From a virus, in IMG/VR virus record IMGVR_UViG_3300036800_000523, positions 1 to 41,184 of that record: a stretch of DNA of 41,184 nt, one strand, 5' to 3'. Position numbers and translations under genes: made by a program. Under the pieces are notes generated by a model, which did no database searches, was not told the DNA's origin, and saw only the letters and a program-made list of their open reading frames with translations. Below, piece by piece: positions 2,250 through 14,090 of this stretch; the stretch's first letter is position 1, and each line of letters begins with the position of its first letter.

Positions 2250-4720
2250 CTACTCCTTCAGGTGTTGCTTCGCCGACTCCAGGAGGGCCGCACGCAGCTC
2301 CTTGGCCGAATCGGCGTCTTTGTCATGCTCCGCGGCCTTGATCTCTTTTGTGAGGCGCAGGTAGGTCGAGCCGTACCAGTGGCTCAGCTCCGCGCGGCGC
2401 TCCCGATCGTCGTCGCTGATGTTCTCCTTCTCCAACTCCAGCCGGTAGCGCTCACGCACCAGGTTGCGCACCTCGTCGGGCAGCGACAGCCGGAACCGCG
2501 CCGCCTCGGCGTCCTCGACGGTGTGATCCAGCTCCTCCTTTTCACGGATGCCCCGGTCGCTGGTTTTCAGGAAGCGCGACAGGCCGGGCACGCTGCCGAC
2601 GACCTTCTCCCCCGTGGTTTCCCTCTCCCCCAGCCCCTCGGATTTGCCGATCAGCCAGTGCGCCAGCACCGACGCCTGGCCGAACTGGTTGCCGGTCCAC
2701 GAGAGCATGTCCTTGTTGGCGTACCAGCCGCCGGCCTTGAAATCGTCGTCGCTGATGATGTTCCGCCGGCGGAAGTCGTCGTAGGGGTTCTGCCCGCGCA
2801 GGTACTGCTGCCAATTGTTGGCCATTTGCAGCGTGGGGCTGATGTGCGGCGCGTCGGAGTAGCCGGCGTCGAGCACGCCCTGCATCCGGTGCAGCAGCGT
2901 CTCGTCGTCGGTGCCGGTGAGCTTCCACAGCAGCCCGCCCATCAGCCGATTCCACGGGTCGGTCGGGATCAGGAAGTACCGCGCCTTCAATTCACCCTTG
3001 GGGCCGCGGGCCCAGCCGTAGGGGATCACGGTGCCCTTTTGCTTGTCCGACTCCGGCACCGCGGCGAACAGCGCCTTGAGCCCAGCGCCCATCAGGCCCG
3101 CCGCGGCCAGCCGCATGAGGATCTTCGGCAAGGCGCCGCTCAGGCCCCACCGCAGCCAGAAGCCGGCCCGCGTCGTCGGCTCGGTCGCGGCCTCGGCGTC
3201 GGCGCGCAGGAACTGGATGAGGATGTTGCTGTACATGAACACCGGGTTGGTGAGCACCGTGGCCAGGCCCTTGCGCTTGCGGTCGGGGTGCCCCATGAAA
3301 TTGCGCACGCGGTACGCCCGCTCGTGTTCGGGGATGCCCCGCGCGGCCAGCATCTGCCAGCCGGCGATCTTGGGCACGCTCACCACGAAGCTGCCCATGC
3401 CCTCGACGGCGTGCTGCATGTTCTGCATCCACTTCACCGCGGCCCGGATCACGCCCCCTTTCTTCACGGGCTTGTCGCCCAGGCCATAGCGGTCGAGCAT
3501 CCGCGCGAACGTGTCGTGCTCATCGTGGAACTCGAAGTCCATCCACGGCACGTCGAGCGCCTTGGCCTCAAGCATGGCGTCGATCGTGGCGTCGGGCCGG
3601 CGTTGCACCCGGCGGTACGCGATCGGGGCGGCGGCGCGGTACGCCTTGAGGATCTCCCGCAGTCCCACTGGCTTGCCCTTGATGGCGTTGTTCCGCCACG
3701 TGCGTTGGAAGTCACTGAACGTGAGGCCCATCGCCCATCCGACGTTCCACGTCACGTACAGCGGGTGAAAGGGCCGGTAGGTGATGAGGCTCAGCCAACG
3801 CCCCACCGTGGCGAGCATGCCGATGTCGTGATTGGCGAACACCTTGGCCACGTACGGGTCCACCGCGTAGTGGCGCAGCTTGCCGTCCTCGTACACCGGC
3901 AGCCACTCCCGCCCGCGGGGCGGCTTGCCCGGCGGCAGCGGCATCCCGCCCGGGCCGTGCCGCGCGCGGCCCTTGGTGATGTCGGTCGGGAAGTGCCTGA
4001 GCATCATTCTGATGGTCGTGTTCTTGGCCTCCTGAAGATCGTTCATCCGGTTGAGGCTCATCGTCTTCATCACCGTCGAGACGAACGGGTTGGCCACGTC
4101 CTTGAACGTGCCGTGCTGCTGGATGATCGCGTGCGAAATGTGCTCGTCGAGGTAGTCGAGCACCGCGAAGGTCGCGTAGTTGTACTTGTTGGGCTCCAGC
4201 TCCTTTGTCACCTTTTCCCGGCTGTAGGTGCCGACGTCGCCGGCGTGATCGACGGCCTCAAAGATGATGTCGTGGAACGTGGTGATCGCCTTCTCCAGCG
4301 CGGCGTACCGCACCGGCCCCACCTCGCGCTCCAGATCCTTGAGCATCGCCGCGGCCGTCGCCGGCGTGTGCCCCTGCGGGTTGGCCAGGTCCGACCGCTC
4401 CGTCGCCGTGCGGTGGAGCTGCAGGTACTCGCCCAGCTCGGGCAGGCCCATGCCCGCCCGCTTCACCGGCGCAACCACTTCCTCCTCCAGCCGGCGGAGC
4501 ATCAGGTGGTTCGTGTTGTCGCTGTAGGCCAGCTCGCCCAGGGCGTACTTCGCGTTCAGCGCCTCGGGCAGGCGGGTCCCGATTTTCTTCTCGGCCGTCT
4601 TCTGCAAGTCCAGCACCGGCGCGGAGCGGTCGAACAGGATCTGCTTGATCGCGCCGATGATGCTGGTGCGGTTGGTCGCCCGCTCCTTGGCGCGGGCCTT
4701 CAAAATGTCCTCCCCGCGCG
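2250..4720 (-). other. C-terminal large polyvalent-protein-associated region
   Basis: Residues about 3120-3946 carry long helical stretches, then YRPFHPLYVTWNVGWAMG near 3440, a motif style I associate with LPD38-type regions. A hydrophobic helix (KILMRLAAAGLMGAGLKALF) lies near residue 3665, and the tail is charged. The region may anchor the protein in the capsid or conduct it through the membrane; that is inference. Confidence 0.5.
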
Positions 4721-7700
4721 CGTACGCCTCGCGGATGTCCTTGCGCCGGCCGGCTGCCAGCTCCTGCGGCGTGCCCGCCAGCACGTCCTGGAGCGTGAGG
4801 TAGGCGTCACGGAACTCGGCGTGGCGGTCGAGGTGTTCCAGGAACTGCTTGTAGGCCAGCGGGGCGCGGGCCTCGACCTCGCCGGGTGCGTTGAGCAGCA
4901 CGCTCAGCAGCTCGGCGTACAGCTCGCGCGGCGATTCGCGGTACTGGATGTAGCTGGCCTTGGCCTTCGCCTTGTCGTATGGGCTCCACCACTCGCTCAG
5001 CGCGATCAGTTGCTTGCGCAGGGCCTGGTTCGGGCCGACCGCCCCGCGCCACGTCGCCGCCAGGTGCCGGTTCAACTTGGCGATCGAGCCGACGACGTTG
5101 CCGCGGCTGAGCGTCGGCGGGTTGCCGCTGCCGCCCAGCGGCAGCCAATCCTCCAGGTGCCCGACCTCGTGCGCCAGCGCCGCCGCGATCTCGCGTGCGC
5201 CCTTCACCTTCCGGGGGTCGATGCTGATGGTGCCGAAGCCGCCCACGCTCTTGAACTTTCCCGCCACGCTGCCGCGCAGCTTCTTCATCACCGGCGCGCC
5301 GGTCTGCATGATCGATCGGGCGAGCTTCAGCAGCTCGGGCATCTCCATCGGGCGCAGCAGCTTCCGCCCGCCCGCGGCCGCGGGGCCGTGAACGGCCACG
5401 GAGTTGTGCAGGATCGGCAGCGGCGTGGGCTCGCTCACCCGGGAATAGGCCCCCGCCCCCTCGTCGTCCAGGTCCCTCTCCCCTTCGCTCTCCCCCCGCG
5501 CGGGCGTGGCCGCGGCCTTGGCCGGCTCCGTGTCGTTGGCCGCTGCGAGCTGGGTCGTCACGTCGCGGAGCTGCTTCTGCTTGGCCTCCAGGTCGGCGGC
5601 GCGGGGGAAGGGCTTGCCGATCTGCGGCAGCAGCTTCGCCAGGTCGGCCTCGTACACGCGCAGGAGCTGGAGGCTGCGGTCCACCATCCCCTGAATGGTG
5701 GACTGCCGCGCGCGGTACTCGATCGAGCCGACCGACGAGTCGGCGTCGTAGGTGGTGTTCGCGCCGACCAGCACCACGCGGGCGCTGCCGAGTGAGCGGT
5801 AGCCTTCCAGCGGGAAGCCGCGGTAGGTGCCCAGGGGCACGCGCTTGTCGGAGCTGGTGCCGCGCGGCGGGATCGACTCGACGGCCTTGTCCAGGGCGTC
5901 CTGTGCCTCTCCGCGGTCGGCGTAGCTCTTGCCGTCGATCTCGATGGAGAACTTGTCCTCCCCGTGCTTCGTCGCCGTCGCCAGGTCCGGCGCGAGTTTC
6001 GCCCCGACCCCCTTCGCGTCCGTGATCTCACCCCTGAGCTTGGCCGCGTCGTCGCGGAGGCGCAGGGAATCGCGCTGGTGGCGGTTGGCCGCGGCCGTCA
6101 GGTCCTGAACGTCCTTGTCGAGCTGGATCCGCGTCAGCAGCAGCGGGTTGCCCGACGCGATCGCCATGACCTGCGCGGGGCTCAGCTCCTCCCCGTCGTC
6201 CTCGCTGATGGCGCGGGCGATCTTCTTGCCCTCCATGAACTGGTTGATGAACTTGGTCTTCGCGTCCACCGCCTGCCACATGAACGTGTCGAACGAGCCC
6301 TCGGTCACGTAGCGGAAGATGTGGATCTTCCCCGTGGGGTTGGCGTTGCCCTGCCGCCAGCCGCGGCCGTCGCGCTGTTCGACGAACGCCGGCACCCACG
6401 GCACGTCGGCGTGGTGCAGCGCCACGAGGCGCTGCTGCGCGTTGACGCCCGTGCCCAGCTTCTCCGAGCCGCCGATGCCGACCAGCGCGTCGCCCGCGGC
6501 CAGGCGGTCGGCCGCGTCCCTCTTCTGCGCATCGGTCAGGTCGCCGAAGTTGATGATCTTGTCGCGCGGGATGCCGCCCTGCACCAGCTTGTCGATCAGC
6601 GACTCGTAGAAGCTGAAGCCCCCCTCGTTCTGGCTGATGCCCAGGTCCGAAAAGATCATCTGCGTGGTGCCGGGGTGCGCCGCGTGGAACTTGAGCACGT
6701 TGCGGACGATCTGGTTCGTCTTGCTGTCGCCGAAGTCGGGGGCCGTGTGGTCGATGATGCGGTGGTCGAGTGCGCTCTTCCGCGCGTCCATGCTGATGCT
6801 CAGCATGTTGTCGCCCTTCTCGCCGGGGCGCTTCTTCTTCGCCTCCCTGGCCCGGTCCTTGATTTCGTTCAGGTAGCTCGACTGCTCCCTGCTCATAGGC
6901 GCCTTCACGACCTCATCGACGCGCTTGGGCCGCTGGAACCCCGGCATGTCCTTGGCGCGCTGGATGTCGATCACCTGGCGGGCGATCTGCTGCAACTCGG
7001 GCATGTTGGTGAACGCGGCGAAGCGGGTGCTGGGGGCGTAGTCGCCCGTGACCGTGTACTCCATCTTCGTCACGAGCCGGCCGAAGGTGCTGGCCCAGGC
7101 GTCGAACGCCGCCACGCCGCGGCTCTCCAGCTCGCGCATCTGGAGGTAGCGCTGCATCGTGTACAGCTCGGCCATCGTGTTCGTGACGGGCGTGCCCGTG
7201 GCGAACACCACGCCGCGGCCGTTGTTCATCTGCTGGAGCCACTGCGTGCGCATCCACATGTTGGTCGCGCGGTCGCTGCGGCTTTTGGGGATGCCCTTCA
7301 CGCGGTCCTGCTTCGTGTAGACGGGCAGGGACTTGTAGCGGTGCGCCTCGTCCACGAACAGGTGGTCGATGCCCGTCTGCTCGAACGTGACGGCGTTGTC
7401 CTTCTTGCTGTCGATCGCCTCCTTGAGCCGGGCCTCCAGCCGGGCCTTGATCTTTTCCAGCGCCTTCACCATCCGGTTGTCGTTCTTCTTGCCGCGGCCG
7501 CGGCCGCGGCCGTACGCCTGCCCGGTGTCCTCCCCCTCGACGCTGCGCTTCACTTCCTCCAGCTCGGCCAGCTCCTTGCGGATGAACCCCGCCTCGACCT
7601 CCGGGTCCATCGGCAGCATGTCGAGCTGATCGTGCGTCAGCACCACCACGTCCCAATCCCCGGTGGCGATCCGCGCGACCGCCGCCTTGCGCCCCTTCGC

Positions 7701-10700
7701 GTCGAACGAATCGACGGCCAGCACCTTGGCGCTGGGATACAGGGCGCGGGTCTGCTTCACCACGGTCTCGAACGCGGCCTTGATGGTGGCGATCGCCGGC
7801 TTCCGCGCCAGCCCCAGGCGGCGCAGCTCCACCGCGGCCGCGGCCATCGTGAACGTCTTGCCCGTGCCCACCTCGTGGCCGTAGAGCCCGATCCCGGTGC
7901 TGATGGTCTGCCACACCGCGTTCCCCTGGTGGGCGCGGAGGCTGATGGCCGGGTTCATGCCGGGGAACGTGAGGTGCGAGCCGTCGAACTTGACGGGCGC
8001 GAGGTTGTTGAACGTGTCGTTGTAGAAGCGGTGCAGGCGCTGGCGGCGCTCGTCGCCTTCCCACACCCAATCCCGAAATGCCTGCTGCACCTTCTCGACC
8101 TTCTCGTTGGCCGCGGCCGTCGCCTCCTTGTTAACGACACGCTTGTCTTTGTCGCCGGGCACGGGGTCGGTGATGGTCAGGCTCTTGTTGTTGAGCGCCG
8201 CCTCGAAGACCTCGATGAAGCCGGCCCGGTCGGTGCCCCACACCGTCGCGTCGTTGGGGCTGTGCTTGTGGCGATTGAGCCCCGTGTCGGTGTAATTCGC
8301 CAGCCAGGTCCCCTGCTGCGGGATGTAGCGCACCGAGAAGTGTTCGGCGATGCCGCCCATCATCGACTGCGCGAAGTCGCGCACGTCCGACGCCGGCACC
8401 CAGCCCGCCCCCAGGCGCAGGTCGATCTCGTCGTGCGGCACGTCCGCCGGCTGCACCTTGTCCAGGGCCTCGACGTTGGCGGCGTACTGCTTCTCGCCGG
8501 CCGCGGCCTCCCGCGCTTCGAGCAACTTCTTTTTGACGTTGCCGCCCAGGTATTGCTCCGCGCTCTTCCAGCCGCCGGCGGGGTCCCGAAACGCCAGGCC
8601 CGCCTTCACCAGCTCGTCGCCGGCGTCGTCCTGCCCCTTGCCCAGCAGCGCCGCCACGCGTGCGATGTCCACGTGGCCCGTCTCGTTGAGCGTGATCCCC
8701 AGGGCCTCGCCGACGGTGCCGGCTTTCGCGGGGCGGTCGTACCCGCGCACCGTGCTCTTGGTGAACACGTCGGCCTTGGTGGCCTCGCCGGTCTTCGGGT
8801 CGTACGACGCTTCCAGGGCCTGCACCACGGGCGCGTCCGGGTCGTCGGCGAACGCCTGCACGTTGGAGCGCTTGCGCAGCGGCCCGCGCTTTTTCACGAA
8901 CTCGTCGTACGCCCGGCCGAGCTGCTCGCGCTTCCGCTGAACCTCGTCGGCGCTCTTGCTGGCCAGCTCCGCGTCGATCAGCTCGCGCAGCGCGTCGCGC
9001 ACGAGCATCGTGTCGGCGATGAGGGCCAGGTTCTTCTTGTCGCCCTCCGCTTCCACCAGCTCCCCGCCCTGCCGGCGGAAGAGCTTTTTCCCCTGCTTCA
9101 CGTACGCCCCGTCCTTGACGCTCCCCGGCGCGGCCTTCCTCGGCGGCTGGCCCAGGTGCGCGGCGGCGGCGGGCTTGTAGACGCCCGCCGGCAGCCGGTC
9201 GATCGCGTCGGCCAGCCGCTTCTGGAAGTCGGCGGTCCTGCTCACGTGCATGTCGCCGCGGCCGTACAGGCGGCTCTTGCGGTCGAGCGTGCCGAGGATC
9301 TGCTCGGGGTTGTCCGCGAAGTAGGTGTTGACGGGGATCGGCGCGCCGCCATCGGGGTCGGGCAATTCCTTGAGCCCCTGGAAGTCGGGCCCCGCCGGCG
9401 CTTCCCCCTCGCCGCGGCGCTTGAAGATCAGCAGGTCGGTGACGACGGACGTGCCGGCGCTCTTCTCGAACGCGCCTTCGGGCAGTCGCACCGCGGCCAC
9501 CAAGTCGGCCTTCTCCCGCATCATCGCGCGGAAGCGGCCTTCGGCCTTGTCCATCGTGCCGGTGCTGGTGATGAGCGCGACCACGCCGCCCGGGCGGGTG
9601 AGGTCCAGCGTCTTCACGATGAAGTAGTCGTGGATCGGCGCGGTGCGGAGCTGCTTGTACGCCGGGTCGTGGAGGGGATAGTCGCCGAAAGGCACGTTGC
9701 CGATCGCGGCGTCGAAGAAGCCCGGCGGCGCGACGAGCTGCTCGAAGCCCTTCACCTGGACGTTGGCCTCGGGGTAGAGCAGGCGGGCGATGTTGCCGGT
9801 GATCGGGTCCAGCTCCACGCCGGTGAGGCGCGAGCCGTCGCGCATGTCCGGGGGCATCAGCCCGAAGAAGATGCCCGCGCCCATCGACGGCTCCAGCACG
9901 CGGCCCCCGCCGGCGAAGCCCAGGCGGCGCATGCCCTGCCACATCGAGACGGCCAGCAGGGGCGAGGAGTAGTGGGCGTTGAGCGTGGACTTGCGCGCCG
10001 CTTCCCACTCCTCGGGCGTCAAGAGGTCCTTTACATCTTTACTTTCCTGTTCCCACGCGGAGGCTTTGCCTTCGCTCTTGCCCTCCGCGCCCACGGCCGC
10101 GGCCGCGTTGAAGAGCTGCGGGAACCGGCCCCACCCGGAGTAGAGCGCGAGCACTTCCTGCTCGGCGGCCGTCGCCCGCCGGCCCTCGGCCATGACGCGG
10201 CGCAGCGTCTCGATCGCGGCGACGTTCTGCTGGTACTTGGTCCTGGCACCGCCGGCGTCGAGCTTCGCCGCGTCGGTGATGGTGTGGTTGCCCGTCAGGG
10301 CTGGGGCTTGTTCTTGGGCGTCTGACTCAGCGACTTCTCGAACGACGCCTGCTGCTGCTCCCTGCCCAGGCTCCGATCCGCCGGCGTCGGGCTCCCGCCC
10401 TCGCTCTCCGAGTCGGTCAGGTAGATGTGACGCGCCTTCGCGTCCTCCTGCGCCAACTGCGGGTCCGCTCCCTGGCTCACCAGCAGGCTGTAGTGGTCCT
10501 GCGCGTTCTTCTCGGCCACCCGCGCCGCGTTGTCCAGTTGGCCCGCCTGGCTGAGCTGCTGGTGCAGCGTCGGGTAGTGCTGTGCCCAGTGCGCCTTCGC
10601 CTCCCGCGCCCACGGCCCCGCCGGCGGCAGGCCCTCGGCCAGCTTCCGGTAGTGCATCAGGCTCGCGCTGTTCTCGGCCATCGCCCCCCAGTGTACCAGA

Positions 10701-13700
10701 TTCCTGCCCCGGCAAGGGAATTTCCATGAGGCGGCGCACTTCGTCCACCAGCCGCTTGCCCGTCAGGGTCGGCCGGCTGCCATGATCCCCCGCGCCTTGC
10801 CAGAACTTTGGATTGTTCCCGCCCTTGGCCCTCCAACTCTCTTCAGGAGTCGCCCCGTTCGCGCCGCCGTCGATGCCGAACTCCTTGGCGATCCCGTTCT
10901 TCAACGTCTCGTCGTCGGCCCCCGTGCGCCTCAGCGCGTCCCAGCGCTCGGCCGAGCCGGAGACGCCGTGGAGCGCGCCGTGCAGGGCAGTATCGAAGTG
11001 CTTGGTGAGCTTGCTCTCACCCTCACCCCCGCCCCCTTTCTTCTCCAGGTTGTCACGCCCCGACGTATCAGGGGTGGGGGCGCGTGCGCCCCCAGGCTCC
11101 TCGGCCGGCGTCTTTGCGCGGTGCTCCACTTCGACGGTGCCGGTGACACGTTCGATCCCGTGCTGGCCGATGTACCGCTCGGGCACGTACGCACGCACGG
11201 TGGGGTAGCCGCTCTGCTGCGCGCTGAGCGTGCGGTGCGAGCCATCGGCCACCATCAGGCCCCCGCCCTTGGGTCCGGCCACGAGAATGGCCGGCGGCAG
11301 CGCCGCGCGCTGCTCGGGCGTGAGCTTGTTCAGCGCGTCCACCTTCCCCTGGTCCTTGTCGCCGGCGATCAGGCTCGACGGGTCGATCTTCCCCGCCGGC
11401 ACTTCCGCCAGCACGTACTTTCCCTTGCTCATCGACGCGAGCGCTTCGATGGTGCCGGCGTTCTCCGGCTCACCGAACTGCTTGGCGTACCACTCGCCGA
11501 CGGCGTGCGCGTCGGCCAGCTCGCGCGGGTGATTCTTCCCCGGCCCTTCCGCGGAGTCCGCGGTGCCGACCGGCTCCTGCTTGCCCCCTTCGTTCTCCAG
11601 CCGTTCCAGCGGTGCGCGGTTCTCCGCGCGAACGCGGCCGATGATGTCGTCGCCGGCACCGCGGCCCGGGCCGTACATCGAGTCGAGGCGCTGAACCTCC
11701 TGAGCCAGGCTCTCGTGCTTCTGCCGCTCGGCCTTGAGCTGCTCGAGTAAAGCCTGGTTCCCCTTCAGCTCGTCCAGCAGCACCTTGGTCGGCGGGTAGT
11801 TTCGCTCGCCGGTCTGCGCGTCGCGCGGGGCGATGCCGTCGAGAAACTTCCTCACCTGCCGCGCCGCGCCGCCGTCCTTGAGCTTTTCGACGGCGTTGCG
11901 GAGCTGGTCGGTCGTCGCGGTGCCCAGGTCCTGCTTGTTGAGGGACGTGACGCCCGCGCTGTTGATGATCCCGGTGAGTCGCGCACGCTCGGCCGCGTCC
12001 CCCCCTACCGCGGGGGCGGGCGTCTGCACCGCCGCGCCGCCGGGCGGCGGCGGCGTGGTTGGTGAGCTGGGCGCTCCGGGGGTCGTAACAACTGCCGAAT
12101 CGGCGGGCGTGATCTGCGCCCCCACCCCTGCATTACCGGAACCCCTCTCGGCCGGGGGCTGCGCCTCGGGGACGGAAGTTGCCGACGCCGGCGGCGGTGT
12201 CTGGTTGGGTCCACCGTCGCCGGTCGCCGGCTGCCGTCCGTTGTCCCCCGCGGAGCCTGAGGGCCTGCCCTCGGTGGGGGAGGGGGATGTGCCGTTGAGT
12301 GAGCTGAGCGCCGCGGCGCGCGCGGCCATCGTCTTTGCGAACAGTTCCTGGTTGCCGCCGGCGTCGGGGTGCGCCTCCTTGATCTTCTCGCGGAACGCAT
12401 CGCGCACGTCGTCGGCGGTGTAACCTTTTTTCAGGCCAAGGAAGTTTGTGGCGTCTTCGCGGCCCATGCCGACGTCGCCGAACTTTCCGGCCATCCGCTC
12501 GGCGGTCGAGCCGTCGCCGGCGGGGGCGCTGCGGAACGTGTCCCACGCCGCGCGCACGCGGGAGGGGTCGCTGGCCATCGTGAACGCGCCCGCGGCCGCG
12601 CCTTGCAGGCCGGCTTTGAGAATGCGATCGACGTCGAGCGCTTCCTTGCCCCCCGACGCCACGTAGTGCGTGAGCTGGCTGGTGAGGTCCTGCACCGCGG
12701 CCACGCCACCTTGGGCACCGGCGGCGCGGATCGTGTTGGCCAGGTACGTGCGGAGGCCCCGGCTCTGCATCTGCCCCAGCGCCCCGAACTTCATGCCCGC
12801 CACGGCCACCGCGCCATCGATGACCGAGCCGACGCCGGCGGCGAGGCTCGCCTGCTCCTTCGTCTTCCCGTCCTTGACCGCGGCGTCGTACACGCCCTGG
12901 TAGCTCTGGCCGGCGGTCTGTGCGAAGAACTGACTTCCTTCGAGCACGCTGGCCAGCGTCTTGGCGCTCGCGCCCGTCACGCCGAAGAGCGAGCCTCCTG
13001 GAAGCGCCGCCCGGCCGGTCAGCGCGGCGGCGATGAGCTGCGGCGCCATCCGCAAGCCGCCCTCGGTGATCTGTTGGAACGCATCCTGCTTCGTGCTGTT
13101 GGGCAGCAACTGCTCGTAGCGCTGCGCCGATGCGGCCGTGTTCTGACGCATGCCCTCGAAGAAGCCGGTGCCCGCGCTCGCGCCGGGCTTGCCCCCGCCG
13201 AAGCGGTCGGCCAGCGTTTGCCCCGCGCCCTCGACCGCCTGAGCCGGCCCGTACGCGAGGTCGCCGCTGCCCTTGAGCCAGTTGTCCACCCAGCCGTGCA
13301 TGCGGCCGACTTCCACGGGCTGGACCGTTCCGCCCTGGACGGTGAACGGGGGCAGCTTGTCCTCGGGCACCCCCAGGCGGAGCATCTGCTGCTGGACGGC
13401 GCGGTACATCTCCTGGTCGGCCTCGGGGCCGTGGGCGTTGGGGTAGTCGGCCTTCCAGTCCGCGGCCACCTGCTGCGCCATCTGGTCGCGCACCTGGACG
13501 GCGTGATAGAGCGCGTGCTCCATCTTGAAACGGTTGTCGTACTTTTCCGCCAGGGCGGGATCGACCGTCGAGCGCACGTACTCCGCGGCCAGCTCCGGAT
13601 CCACCTCGCGCCCGGGGCGGTTGGCCTTGGCCCACGCCTCGACCTGCGGGCGCTCGCTGGCCAGCGCGGCGTTGCCGAACTGGTCGGCCCACCGCGCCTT

Positions 13701-14090
13701 GGCGTACATCTCCGGCTCAAGAAGCTCCGAGACGATGCCGCCGTGGTGCAGGTCGTGCTGGAAGCCCGCCTGCCCGGTGTCCTCGGGAACGCCGAAGGTG
13801 CTGTTGAGCGTCGGGATCTGCGGGATGGGCTTGGGCTGCTCGGCCGGCAGACCGCCGACGCGATCGGCGGCTTGGAGCGCCGGCACCAGGTTCTGCCCGC
13901 CGGCCCGGGCCGCGTCGAGGTTGAACTTCGCCGCCTCCTGCTCCCACGGGTCCACCTTGGTTTGCAACGACACGCCGTTGCTGTCGCCGGTGATCTCCGG
14001 GGTGGGGCGGTCGGCAGCCGGCGCGGTGGCTCCATTCGCCGCCGGCTGCATCGAAGCCGCCATCTGTGCCCAGGGGTCCTGCTCAGGCAT
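2250..14090 (-). CDS. Giant polyvalent protein (J domain, ParB-like, N6-methyltransferase, SNF2 helicase, metallopeptidase)
   Basis: One open frame of 3,946 codons; GGAG lies 6 bases before the ATG at 14090. Order: residues 1-540 Ala/Gly-rich helical; 541-600 J domain with HPD; 855-975 ParB-like fold; 1265-1560 N6-adenine methyltransferase (LEPSMGAG, NVPF); 2035-2630 superfamily-2 helicase (EVGTGKT, DEAH, QRDGRGWRQGN); a post-helicase helical region; 2945-2995 HEVGH zinc-peptidase motif; 3120-3946 large polyvalent-associated region with a hydrophobic helix near 3665. This is the layout of phage polyvalent proteins related to P1 DarB, which are packaged, ejected with DNA, and protect or remodel it. 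Caveat: codons 1137-1265 are a poor coding frame (Gly/Ala/Arg/Pro-rich, low G/C at third positions), while another frame there encodes the 128-residue gene at 10295-10681. The frame may therefore be two genes, or carry frameshifts. Confidence 0.85.
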   Translation of the reverse strand: MPEQDPWAQMAASMQPAANGATAPAADRPTPEITGDSNGVSLQTKVDPWEQEAAKFNLDAARAGGQNLVPALQAADRVGGLPAEQPKPIPQIPTLNSTFGVPEDTGQAGFQHDLHHGGIVSELLEPEMYAKARWADQFGNAALASERPQVEAWAKANRPGREVDPELAAEYVRSTVDPALAEKYDNRFKMEHALYHAVQVRDQMAQQVAADWKADYPNAHGPEADQEMYRAVQQQMLRLGVPEDKLPPFTVQGGTVQPVEVGRMHGWVDNWLKGSGDLAYGPAQAVEGAGQTLADRFGGGKPGASAGTGFFEGMRQNTAASAQRYEQLLPNSTKQDAFQQITEGGLRMAPQLIAAALTGRAALPGGSLFGVTGASAKTLASVLEGSQFFAQTAGQSYQGVYDAAVKDGKTKEQASLAAGVGSVIDGAVAVAGMKFGALGQMQSRGLRTYLANTIRAAGAQGGVAAVQDLTSQLTHYVASGGKEALDVDRILKAGLQGAAAGAFTMASDPSRVRAAWDTFRSAPAGDGSTAERMAGKFGDVGMGREDATNFLGLKKGYTADDVRDAFREKIKEAHPDAGGNQELFAKTMAARAAALSSLNGTSPSPTEGRPSGSAGDNGRQPATGDGGPNQTPPPASATSVPEAQPPAERGSGNAGVGAQITPADSAVVTTPGAPSSPTTPPPPGGAAVQTPAPAVGGDAAERARLTGIINSAGVTSLNKQDLGTATTDQLRNAVEKLKDGGAARQVRKFLDGIAPRDAQTGERNYPPTKVLLDELKGNQALLEQLKAERQKHESLAQEVQRLDSMYGPGRGAGDDIIGRVRAENRAPLERLENEGGKQEPVGTADSAEGPGKNHPRELADAHAVGEWYAKQFGEPENAGTIEALASMSKGKYVLAEVPAGKIDPSSLIAGDKDQGKVDALNKLTPEQRAALPPAILVAGPKGGGLMVADGSHRTLSAQQSGYPTVRAYVPERYIGQHGIERVTGTVEVEHRAKTPAEEPGGARAPTPDTSGRDNLEKKGGGGEGESKLTKHFDTALHGALHGVSGSAERWDALRRTGADDETLKNGIAKEFGIDGGANGATPEESWRAKGGNNPKFWQGAGDHGSRPTLTGKRLVDEVRRLMEIPLPGQESGTLGGDGREQREPDALPEAGRGPAAGGAVGAGGEGALGTALPDAAPAAQPGGPTGQRGAGGREERAGPLQPAGEPGSGPAVGAGGREGASHLPDRLGERGREPDAGGSEPGQGAAAGVVREVAESDAQEQAPALTGNHTITDAAKLDAGGARTKYQQNVAAIETLRRVMAEGRRATAAEQEVLALYSGWGRFPQLFNAAAAVGAEGKSEGKASAWEQESKDVKDLLTPEEWEAARKSTLNAHYSSPLLAVSMWQGMRRLGFAGGGRVLEPSMGAGIFFGLMPPDMRDGSRLTGVELDPITGNIARLLYPEANVQVKGFEQLVAPPGFFDAAIGNVPFGDYPLHDPAYKQLRTAPIHDYFIVKTLDLTRPGGVVALITSTGTMDKAEGRFRAMMREKADLVAAVRLPEGAFEKSAGTSVVTDLLIFKRRGEGEAPAGPDFQGLKELPDPDGGAPIPVNTYFADNPEQILGTLDRKSRLYGRGDMHVSRTADFQKRLADAIDRLPAGVYKPAAAAHLGQPPRKAAPGSVKDGAYVKQGKKLFRRQGGELVEAEGDKKNLALIADTMLVRDALRELIDAELASKSADEVQRKREQLGRAYDEFVKKRGPLRKRSNVQAFADDPDAPVVQALEASYDPKTGEATKADVFTKSTVRGYDRPAKAGTVGEALGITLNETGHVDIARVAALLGKGQDDAGDELVKAGLAFRDPAGGWKSAEQYLGGNVKKKLLEAREAAAGEKQYAANVEALDKVQPADVPHDEIDLRLGAGWVPASDVRDFAQSMMGGIAEHFSVRYIPQQGTWLANYTDTGLNRHKHSPNDATVWGTDRAGFIEVFEAALNNKSLTITDPVPGDKDKRVVNKEATAAANEKVEKVQQAFRDWVWEGDERRQRLHRFYNDTFNNLAPVKFDGSHLTFPGMNPAISLRAHQGNAVWQTISTGIGLYGHEVGTGKTFTMAAAAVELRRLGLARKPAIATIKAAFETVVKQTRALYPSAKVLAVDSFDAKGRKAAVARIATGDWDVVVLTHDQLDMLPMDPEVEAGFIRKELAELEEVKRSVEGEDTGQAYGRGRGRGKKNDNRMVKALEKIKARLEARLKEAIDSKKDNAVTFEQTGIDHLFVDEAHRYKSLPVYTKQDRVKGIPKSRSDRATNMWMRTQWLQQMNNGRGVVFATGTPVTNTMAELYTMQRYLQMRELESRGVAAFDAWASTFGRLVTKMEYTVTGDYAPSTRFAAFTNMPELQQIARQVIDIQRAKDMPGFQRPKRVDEVVKAPMSREQSSYLNEIKDRAREAKKKRPGEKGDNMLSISMDARKSALDHRIIDHTAPDFGDSKTNQIVRNVLKFHAAHPGTTQMIFSDLGISQNEGGFSFYESLIDKLVQGGIPRDKIINFGDLTDAQKRDAADRLAAGDALVGIGGSEKLGTGVNAQQRLVALHHADVPWVPAFVEQRDGRGWRQGNANPTGKIHIFRYVTEGSFDTFMWQAVDAKTKFINQFMEGKKIARAISEDDGEELSPAQVMAIASGNPLLLTRIQLDKDVQDLTAAANRHQRDSLRLRDDAAKLRGEITDAKGVGAKLAPDLATATKHGEDKFSIEIDGKSYADRGEAQDALDKAVESIPPRGTSSDKRVPLGTYRGFPLEGYRSLGSARVVLVGANTTYDADSSVGSIEYRARQSTIQGMVDRSLQLLRVYEADLAKLLPQIGKPFPRAADLEAKQKQLRDVTTQLAAANDTEPAKAAATPARGESEGERDLDDEGAGAYSRVSEPTPLPILHNSVAVHGPAAAGGRKLLRPMEMPELLKLARSIMQTGAPVMKKLRGSVAGKFKSVGGFGTISIDPRKVKGAREIAAALAHEVGHLEDWLPLGGSGNPPTLSRGNVVGSIAKLNRHLAATWRGAVGPNQALRKQLIALSEWWSPYDKAKAKASYIQYRESPRELYAELLSVLLNAPGEVEARAPLAYKQFLEHLDRHAEFRDAYLTLQDVLAGTPQELAAGRRKDIREAYARGEDILKARAKERATNRTSIIGAIKQILFDRSAPVLDLQKTAEKKIGTRLPEALNAKYALGELAYSDNTNHLMLRRLEEEVVAPVKRAGMGLPELGEYLQLHRTATERSDLANPQGHTPATAAAMLKDLEREVGPVRYAALEKAITTFHDIIFEAVDHAGDVGTYSREKVTKELEPNKYNYATFAVLDYLDEHISHAIIQQHGTFKDVANPFVSTVMKTMSLNRMNDLQEAKNTTIRMMLRHFPTDITKGRARHGPGGMPLPPGKPPRGREWLPVYEDGKLRHYAVDPYVAKVFANHDIGMLATVGRWLSLITYRPFHPLYVTWNVGWAMGLTFSDFQRTWRNNAIKGKPVGLREILKAYRAAAPIAYRRVQRRPDATIDAMLEAKALDVPWMDFEFHDEHDTFARMLDRYGLGDKPVKKGGVIRAAVKWMQNMQHAVEGMGSFVVSVPKIAGWQMLAARGIPEHERAYRVRNFMGHPDRKRKGLATVLTNPVFMYSNILIQFLRADAEAATEPTTRAGFWLRWGLSGALPKILMRLAAAGLMGAGLKALFAAVPESDKQKGTVIPYGWARGPKGELKARYFLIPTDPWNRLMGGLLWKLTGTDDETLLHRMQGVLDAGYSDAPHISPTLQMANNWQQYLRGQNPYDDFRRRNIISDDDFKAGGWYANKDMLSWTGNQFGQASVLAHWLIGKSEGLGERETTGEKVVGSVPGLSRFLKTSDRGIREKEELDHTVEDAEAARFRLSLPDEVRNLVRERYRLELEKENISDDDRERRAELSHWYGSTYLRLTKEIKAAEHDKDADSAKELRAALLESAKQHLKE
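5110..5265 (-). other. Zincin-like metallopeptidase motif in the giant protein
   Basis: ISIDPRKV leads into a helix with AALAHEVGHLEDW near residue 2975. HExxH is the zinc-binding and catalytic signature of zincins, and MPTase domains are recurrent in polyvalent proteins. A third zinc ligand is not obvious from reading. The role, host-protein cleavage or self-processing, is inferred. Confidence 0.65.
6200..7985 (-). other. SNF2-type superfamily-2 helicase domain of the giant protein
   Basis: Motif I is HEVGTGKTFT (near residue 2075), motif II is VDEAHRYKS (near 2247), motif III is ATGTPVTNT (near 2300), and motif VI is QRDGRGWRQGN (near 2576). All ATPase motifs look intact. A conserved follow-on region with a YRGFPLEGY turn comes next, as in other methylase-helicase polyvalent proteins. 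Confidence 0.85.
9400..10298 (-). other. N6-adenine DNA methyltransferase domain of the giant protein
   Basis: The domain opens with the helical lead-in typical of polyvalent methylases (YQQNVAAIETLRR, then SGWGRFP). SAM-binding motif I is LEPSMGAG near residue 1400. Catalytic motif IV is NVPF near residue 1465, in place of the usual NPPY. No ATG or GTG exists in frame near 10298, so this part depends on read-in from upstream, on a CTG at 10298, or on a frameshift. Confidence 0.8.
10057..10075. repeat. Short palindrome, GCGGAGGC-type, one mismatch, inside the giant gene
   Basis: GCGGAGGC-TTT-GCCTTCGC, the same sequence as the copies at 17232 and 21812 apart from one base in the second arm. 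It lies in coding sequence and contributes the GKASA residues ahead of the methyltransferase motif I. Confidence 0.5.
10295..10681 (-). CDS. Nested gene inside the giant frame, TnpV-like helical protein
   Basis: A 128-residue protein in the +1 frame relative to the giant gene, with an ATG at 10681 after a G6 run and a TGA at 10295. Nearly every codon ends in G or C, which is how the real genes here look; the giant frame over the same bases does not. Residues 20-90 (AHWAQHYPTLHQQLSQAG, then VAEKNAQDHYSLLVSQG) form a helical array resembling a small domain seen in polyvalent and ICE proteins. The end is Glu/Gln/Ser/Pro-rich. The TGA overlaps a CTG at 10298 where the methyltransferase frame resumes. 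It may be an independent nested gene or a domain spliced out of frame by sequencing or programmed shifts. Confidence 0.65.
   Translation of the reverse strand: MAENSASLMHYRKLAEGLPPAGPWAREAKAHWAQHYPTLHQQLSQAGQLDNAARVAEKNAQDHYSLLVSQGADPQLAQEDAKARHIYLTDSESEGGSPTPADRSLGREQQQASFEKSLSQTPKNKPQP
11075..11094. repeat. Short palindrome, TGGGGGCGC-type, inside the giant gene
   Basis: TGGGGGCGC-GT-GCGCCCCCA, a perfect 9-bp inverted repeat. It differs by one loop base from the copy at 34447-34466. In frame it encodes GGARAP within a linker. Confidence 0.6.
11165..11525 (-). other. ParB/Srx-like nuclease-fold domain in the giant protein
   Basis: Residues about 855-975. The segment has a KYVLAEVPAGKIDPSSL strand region and, near residue 950, VADGSHRTLSAQQSG. 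This matches the GxHR (here GSHR) motif of the ParB-like fold common in polyvalent proteins. These domains bind or hydrolyse nucleotides or nick DNA; which applies here is unknown. Confidence 0.6.
12290..12470 (-). other. J domain (DnaJ-like) inside the giant protein
   Basis: Residues about 541-600. The helix FLGLKKGYTADDVRDAFREK is followed by the diagnostic HPD tripeptide in KEAHPDAGGN, then a third helix ending in ALSSLNG. HPD is the Hsp70-activating loop of J proteins, so this segment can be expected to recruit host DnaK. Confidence 0.8.

Follow-up and report, generated by a model that had tools for sequence, protein, structure and literature searches.

The window analysed here is the whole 41,184-base stretch of a virus record, with a GC content of 68%. 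On its minus strand, a gene of 128 codons is nested in the +1 frame of a 3,946-codon open reading frame (ORF). The features of the locus are as follows:

2250..14090, minus strand: giant polyvalent DarB-like ORF, 3,946 aa, open across the nested gene (ORF list; phrog_10089, E = 1.4e-243)
5004..8003, minus strand: SNF2-type helicase part (phrog_10089, E = 2.2e-214; PF00176 (SNF2-rel_dom), E = 1.6e-5, just under the cut-off)
8004..10295, minus strand: start of the DarB-like methyltransferase module, beginning where the nested gene ends (phrog_10089, residues 8-771 of the piece 10316-8004)
10295..10681, minus strand: nested gene, 128 codons, ATG to TGA, encoding protein P0002, small, TnpV-like and helical (codon usage, GC3, +1 homologues at the same site)
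10298..10680, minus strand: giant-frame reading of the nested segment, a Gly/Ala/Pro/Arg-rich linker (translation)
10303-10306: CCCC run (sequence inspection)
10684-10689, minus strand: G6 run, 2 bases upstream of the nested ATG, Shine-Dalgarno-like (16S-tail duplex energy)
10690..10695, minus strand: TACACT, a -10-like candidate 8 bases before the nested ATG (inspection of the sequence only)

The giant frame holds an adenine methyltransferase module followed by a SNF2-type helicase, and by this module content it is a DarB-like polyvalent anti-restriction protein. DarB of phage P1 protects phage DNA against host restriction. The TKYQ motif of the methyltransferase module is located 18 codons past the nested stop, and the giant-frame linker over the nested segment is probably disordered. 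The DarB-like giant protein of JC1, a Bcep22-like phage, is annotated with 4,515 aa and was identified in virions from 51 unique peptides (PMC9144972). In the window, the N-terminal region of the giant protein includes a DnaJ-like stretch (12348-12443, minus strand; PF00226, E = 0.0016, below the cut-off), over whose neighbourhood phrog_9210 also matched (E = 2.8e-7).

We scored codon usage along the giant gene after training on the remainder of the giant ORF. The segment 10681-10295 scored +0.36 log-units per codon in the nested frame versus -0.79 in the giant frame. Outside the segment, the giant frame had a mean of +0.45 per codon and a lowest value of -0.15, and the +1 frame reached -0.61 at best; thus, the segment is unique within the giant gene. 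GC3 was 0.95 in the nested frame, 0.48 in the giant frame within the segment, and 0.93 in the giant-frame flanks. These values accord with the first-pass annotation, which had read the segment as a 128-codon gene from ATG to TGA, coding in the +1 frame. Its proposal of a helical product also agrees with the predicted structure, which consists of helices whose pLDDT exceeds 90 at about residues 24-86.

We then searched for relatives of the 128-residue protein. By tblastn, its matches in Klebsiella and Erwinia phages all fell within the annotated giant gene, and the sole further match was one TnpV gene of a gut contig. In all of the first five giant genes examined, the match lay in the +1 frame of the annotated CDS, in an ORF of 105-108 codons with an ATG and a GAGGT-type Shine-Dalgarno (SD) sequence. 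A +1 nested homologue is present at the same site in Klebsiella phages LASTA and SopranoGao and in Erwinia phages Pavtok, PEp14 and Stean. The viral collection gave no match when it was searched with the window protein alone, and an alignment with the phage relatives was required. Such alignment-based searches added Pseudomonas phage Itty13, Agrobacterium phage Atu_ph08, Vibrio phage VvAW1, Ochrobactrum phage POI1126 and Microcystis phage Mwe-JY07, and yielded 88 loci in genomes and viral contigs. The nested gene was also found in IMG/VR contigs and in prophages. When duplicates, truncated loci, free-standing copies and the split gene of phage PBC5 were left out, 71 distinct loci remained (window included), each with a nested ORF of 75-133 codons spanned by a giant frame.

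In these relatives the nested gene is located just before the methyltransferase/SNF2-helicase (DarB-like) module. The homologue alignment that the first-pass annotation had called for puts the 128-residue segment out of line with its flanks, in the +1 frame in the relatives as in the window. Divergent +1 copies occur in BcepIL02 and CSP3, where AGGAGG stands about 8 bases before the ATG, and in USP_25 and L110; of the viral contigs, L110 is the one that best matches the methyltransferase part of the window. The nested gene is annotated in none of the DarB-like phage records examined. It was not detected in phages Y7, 8P and BKO1-TP3, contig L111, P1 darB, a Burkholderia vietnamiensis plasmid, or a Streptococcus SNF2 gene; thus, not every such protein depends on it. 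Judged by this comparison, bases 10681-10295 are a real nested gene, neither an artefact nor peculiar to the phage of the window.

A related arrangement was found on plasmids. The methyltransferase part of the window matched 1,962 plasmid records, and a gene annotated as "TnpV protein" stood directly upstream of the methyltransferase in a Nitratidesulfovibrio plasmid and likewise in a Cohnella plasmid. The tblastn search of plasmids with the phage-branch protein gave no match, and the link came through the methyltransferase search and the adjoining TnpV annotations. A reading in which the plasmid tnpV is merely adjacent to the methyltransferase gene was dropped, as the methyltransferase ORF proved to be open upstream of tnpV. 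True TnpV (PF14198) genes are nested in the +1 frame of a methyltransferase-helicase ORF in Cohnella, Monoglobus and Nitratidesulfovibrio plasmids and in gut elements. Six loci with GC contents of 38-54% (L117, L121, L122, L124, L126 and L127) have a TnpV gene in the +1 frame inside the methyltransferase ORF, and these show 0 giant-frame stops where 3.5-11.7 are expected. The giant ORF of L126 and L122 has a strong SD sequence and start (-12.3 and -13.5 kcal/mol, respectively) and some 285 codons of additional protein sequence before tnpV. By hit coordinates alone, the same +1 relation was seen in nine of the ten gut records having both genes. The arrangement thus spans phages and conjugative-type elements of several phyla, with the true-TnpV cases coming from plasmids of Bacillota and Desulfovibrio and from gut elements.

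The phage branch resembles the TnpV family (PF14198), known from transposons and integrative elements, in being short and alpha-helical and in the motif K/WxEhxPxxYxxLxxxGxLxxxLxxxxxxA. It differs in a shorter N-terminus and in scores below the family cut-off, the window protein included (21.3 bits, E = 2.8e-4, against the curated 27 bits); for this reason we call it TnpV-like rather than TnpV. At E = 0.01, PF14198 matched 26 of 60 relatives (best E = 3.6e-5), and the nested TnpVs of L121, L126 (133.8 bits) and L127 (127 bits) passed the Pfam cut-off. A comparison of the phage branch with the core helices of canonical TnpV by hhalign gave a probability of only 54% (E = 1.3e-4) over 51 columns. 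Divergence within the canonical TnpV alignment precluded a pattern scan, and a single TnpV as query had no viral matches. However, both the phage branch and canonical TnpV lie in the +1 frame of the ORF upstream of a methyltransferase module, and this shared position argues for a common origin. In the fold search, no PDB match had an E-value below 0.7, and the best match in the viral library was an unnamed large protein (Q8W6J4, E = 2e-3), so the fold gives no indication of a biochemical role. A sequence search of solved structures with the nested protein was empty.

TnpV-like segments also occur in other settings. PHROG family 938, labelled endolysin, ends with one. In Pseudidiomarina (L039, 7974-8762), a gene neighbouring a helix-turn-helix gene joins a TnpV-like domain to a hydrophobic region that is probably a membrane segment, and a divergent helix-turn-helix gene adjoins the TnpV-like gene of L030. 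The N-terminal giant frame of Sinorhizobium phage PBC5 (L018, 2716-9309) runs in frame into a TnpV-like segment, and its methyltransferase lies in the next ORF (8733 onward), unlike in its relative Atu_ph08. A one-base difference splits the PBC5 gene, and the split may be natural or an old sequencing error.

We explored how the nested gene is initiated. In the window, the G6 run lies 2 bases before the ATG and its duplex with the 16S tail has an energy of -7.8 kcal/mol, so that a ribosome-binding sequence explains it better than a shift site does. The median anti-SD energy was -6.6 kcal/mol for nested starts versus -2.5 kcal/mol for out-of-frame ATGs of the same giant genes (6,241 controls, p = 9e-35). 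In 14 of the 71 loci, a nested-frame stop stands five codons or fewer before the nested ATG. Internal initiation fits this pattern of signals, and frameshifting into the nested frame does not. The first-pass annotation had also remarked that the methyltransferase part has no ATG, GTG or TTG nearby, and our scan of the giant frame confirmed that a CTG overlapping the nested TGA is the sole candidate. No giant-frame ATG, GTG or TTG exists between the nested stop and the conserved methyltransferase start in 38 of 58 scorable loci; thus, the methyltransferase module is not easily a gene of its own.

We examined selection on both frames. The third position of the nested frame is the first position of the giant frame. 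Across 19 locus pairs, differences at nested codon positions 1, 2 and 3 numbered 251, 233 and 478 within the nested gene, and those at giant codon positions 1, 2 and 3 of the downstream flank numbered 484, 336 and 1802. The substitution peak therefore moves to the nested third position inside the gene, which is a phase change of the periodicity over it. This phase change, together with the conservation of the protein, points to purifying selection on the inner frame.

For the outer frame, we analysed stop avoidance. A giant-frame stop arises where a nested codon ending in T precedes AA, AG or GA, and the expectation comes from shuffles of synonymous codons that follow the usage of the genome concerned. 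No giant-frame stop was observed across the nested gene where 274.6 were expected, in 71 loci that were selected for a spanning giant frame and are kin, so that the counts are not independent draws; the argument rests on the contrast with free-standing homologues and on the spread of GC contents from 40 to 70%. At stop-risk sites of these loci T was found in 0 of 1,590 cases, versus 352 of 3,225 at non-risk sites. By contrast, T occupies 23 of 126 risk sites in seven homologues that stand free, away from any DarB-like gene, and these carry stops of the giant-frame type. Of the eight loci that are not spanned, L065 is a rearranged remnant and the other seven lack a methyltransferase module in their neighbourhood. 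The avoidance of stops relative to the free-standing control indicates that the outer frame is maintained as well.

The first-pass annotation had attributed the open giant frame solely to the G/C-rich third positions of the other frame. This stands for the window, where the probability of an open giant frame is 0.41 from codon composition; its open frame is uninformative because of the 68% GC content. It does not stand for the family, since relatives of lower GC content would not stay open by chance. The view that the giant frame is noise in the segment likewise agrees with the codon score of the window. In the relatives, giant-frame column identity was 0.326 against 0.262 +/- 0.002 under a null that holds the nested protein fixed and avoids stops. 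Part of this excess may come from shared ancestry. An LExVPAExV-like stretch of the linker (e.g., about 9030-9060 of L017) is conserved beyond what the nested protein forces, and it is mostly lost in the window. Judged from these substitution and stop patterns, both frames are under selection, and we are highly confident that the segment is dual coding.

The first-pass annotation had listed four options, and the one of a nested gene under a real giant protein is supported by what the relatives show. If two compensating sequencing indels at the G6 and CCCC runs faked the frame change, the real protein would read the 128 residues in line. Homopolymer runs do flank the segment, and a one-base difference does split the gene in the PBC5 record. 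However, at least ten isolated, independently sequenced phages and many assembled contigs share the +1 relation, the relatives have an ATG and an SD sequence where the window has its G6 run, and the close upstream stops also oppose in-line reading. The indel reading is refuted by these comparisons for the family as a whole, and for the segment it has practically no chance of being right. Programmed frameshifting, by which the N-terminal protein would be joined to the TnpV-like segment, and perhaps back again, to give fusions, draws on the G6 run at the 5' edge and on the in-frame fusion in PBC5. But no slippery run is common to the relatives, nested-frame stops 0-5 codons before the ATG leave almost no room for a shift in 14 loci, a strong SD sequence and ATG are conserved, and free-standing homologues exist. 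We therefore consider shifts at G6 and CCCC to be very improbable, as independent genomes have the same layout without those runs.

The locus could also hold three separate genes, with the methyltransferase-helicase starting from the CTG or another unusual codon and the giant frame open by accident. Codon composition of the window would permit this, and PGAP annotates the genes of the L121 plasmid separately. It conflicts with the way in which giant-frame stops are strongly avoided even at a GC content as low as 40%, with the presence of such stops in free-standing homologues, with the lack of ordinary start codons before most methyltransferase modules, and with the upstream SD sequence, start and additional protein sequence of the giant ORF in L122 and L126; we regard this reading as very improbable. 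Finally, the nested segment might be a homing element of the ShiLan type. In that actinophage system, an out-of-frame HNH endonuclease gene, mobile and patchily distributed, lies inside a DNA methylase ORF without in-frame stops (PMC11855218). The layout is alike, but the nested product resembles TnpV and has no HNH match, the gene stands at one site in most relatives and is not patchy among close ones, and it is co-inherited with the downstream module as described below, so that a homing element is most improbable here.

The best explanation is two overlapping genes, in which an older tnpV-like gene is read through by an N-terminally extended methyltransferase-helicase gene, and we hold it with good confidence. 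The small gene would once have been the upstream neighbour of the methyltransferase-helicase gene, which may have gained N-terminal modules and come to read through it. The nested frame is probably the older one and the linker overprinted, because the nested frame encodes a structured protein with free-standing relatives and the giant frame is of low complexity there. The small gene also lives alone, as the free-standing homologues show, and methyltransferase-helicase genes without a detectable nested gene exist in P1 darB and a Burkholderia plasmid; the latter are consistent with an ancestral neighbour that was read through. Today the giant gene would produce one polypeptide, from N-terminal modules through a low-complexity linker to the methyltransferase and SNF2-helicase modules, and ribosomes would initiate internally on its mRNA to make the small protein.

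Our correlation analysis showed that identity of the nested gene follows that of the downstream module, with a rank correlation of 0.67 and a partial one of 0.59 once the N-terminus is taken into account; it shows hardly any link to that of the upstream modules (partial rank correlation 0.13). In a Mantel test of the nested gene against the methyltransferase module, 0 of 500 shuffles reached the observed value. Phages with exchanged N-terminal modules retain both the nested gene and the downstream module. The nested gene thus co-evolves with the methyltransferase module and not with the exchangeable N-terminus, which suggests a partner or regulator of that module. The small protein might act together with the methyltransferase-helicase: encoded in cis and made in the same translation burst, it could serve as a partner, an assembly factor or an inhibitor. 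This is the least certain step of the explanation, and we put it at slightly under an even chance. A broader idea, which we offer more tentatively still, is that TnpV-like proteins are dedicated partners of polyvalent methyltransferase-helicases in phages and conjugative elements of several phyla, encoded within the partner's gene in a fixed +1 phase; the "transposon-encoded protein TnpV" would then be a freed or mobilised subunit or regulator of an anti-restriction machine.

The giant frame belongs with P1 DarB, Bcep22 gp75 and JC1 gp69 in having methyltransferase and SNF2-type helicase modules, whereas P1 darB has no nested gene. In tailed phages, the spanin genes Rz and Rz1 form a pair in which the small gene is wholly nested in the +1 frame of the larger and is made by internal initiation. 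The proteins here are different, the host gene measures about 9-15 kb, and the pair is found on plasmids in addition to phages. To our knowledge, it is rare that a long same-strand nested gene is conserved over phages and plasmids whose hosts belong to different phyla. The closest precedent is that of ShiLan, in which an out-of-frame HNH element likewise lies in a methylase gene with the host frame open and with no known promoter of its own; the TnpV-like gene differs from it in being stably co-inherited and in not encoding an endonuclease. The polyvalent-protein paper (PMC5512222) makes no mention of TnpV or a nested gene, and in the openly accessible literature we found no description of TnpV nested inside another gene.

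The locus would be a clear case of a protein linker derived from an older gene read in another frame, with free-standing relatives as controls. Its position and co-inheritance give a genomic hint at what TnpV proteins may work with. In plasmids, the nested gene also leads gene callers to shorten the giant gene or to leave it out. Around the annotated TnpV, they trim the giant start in L121 and list no giant gene in L122 and L127. In phage Itty13 (L015, NC_070969), the giant ORF is unannotated, and three large CDS are placed over it on the opposite strand.
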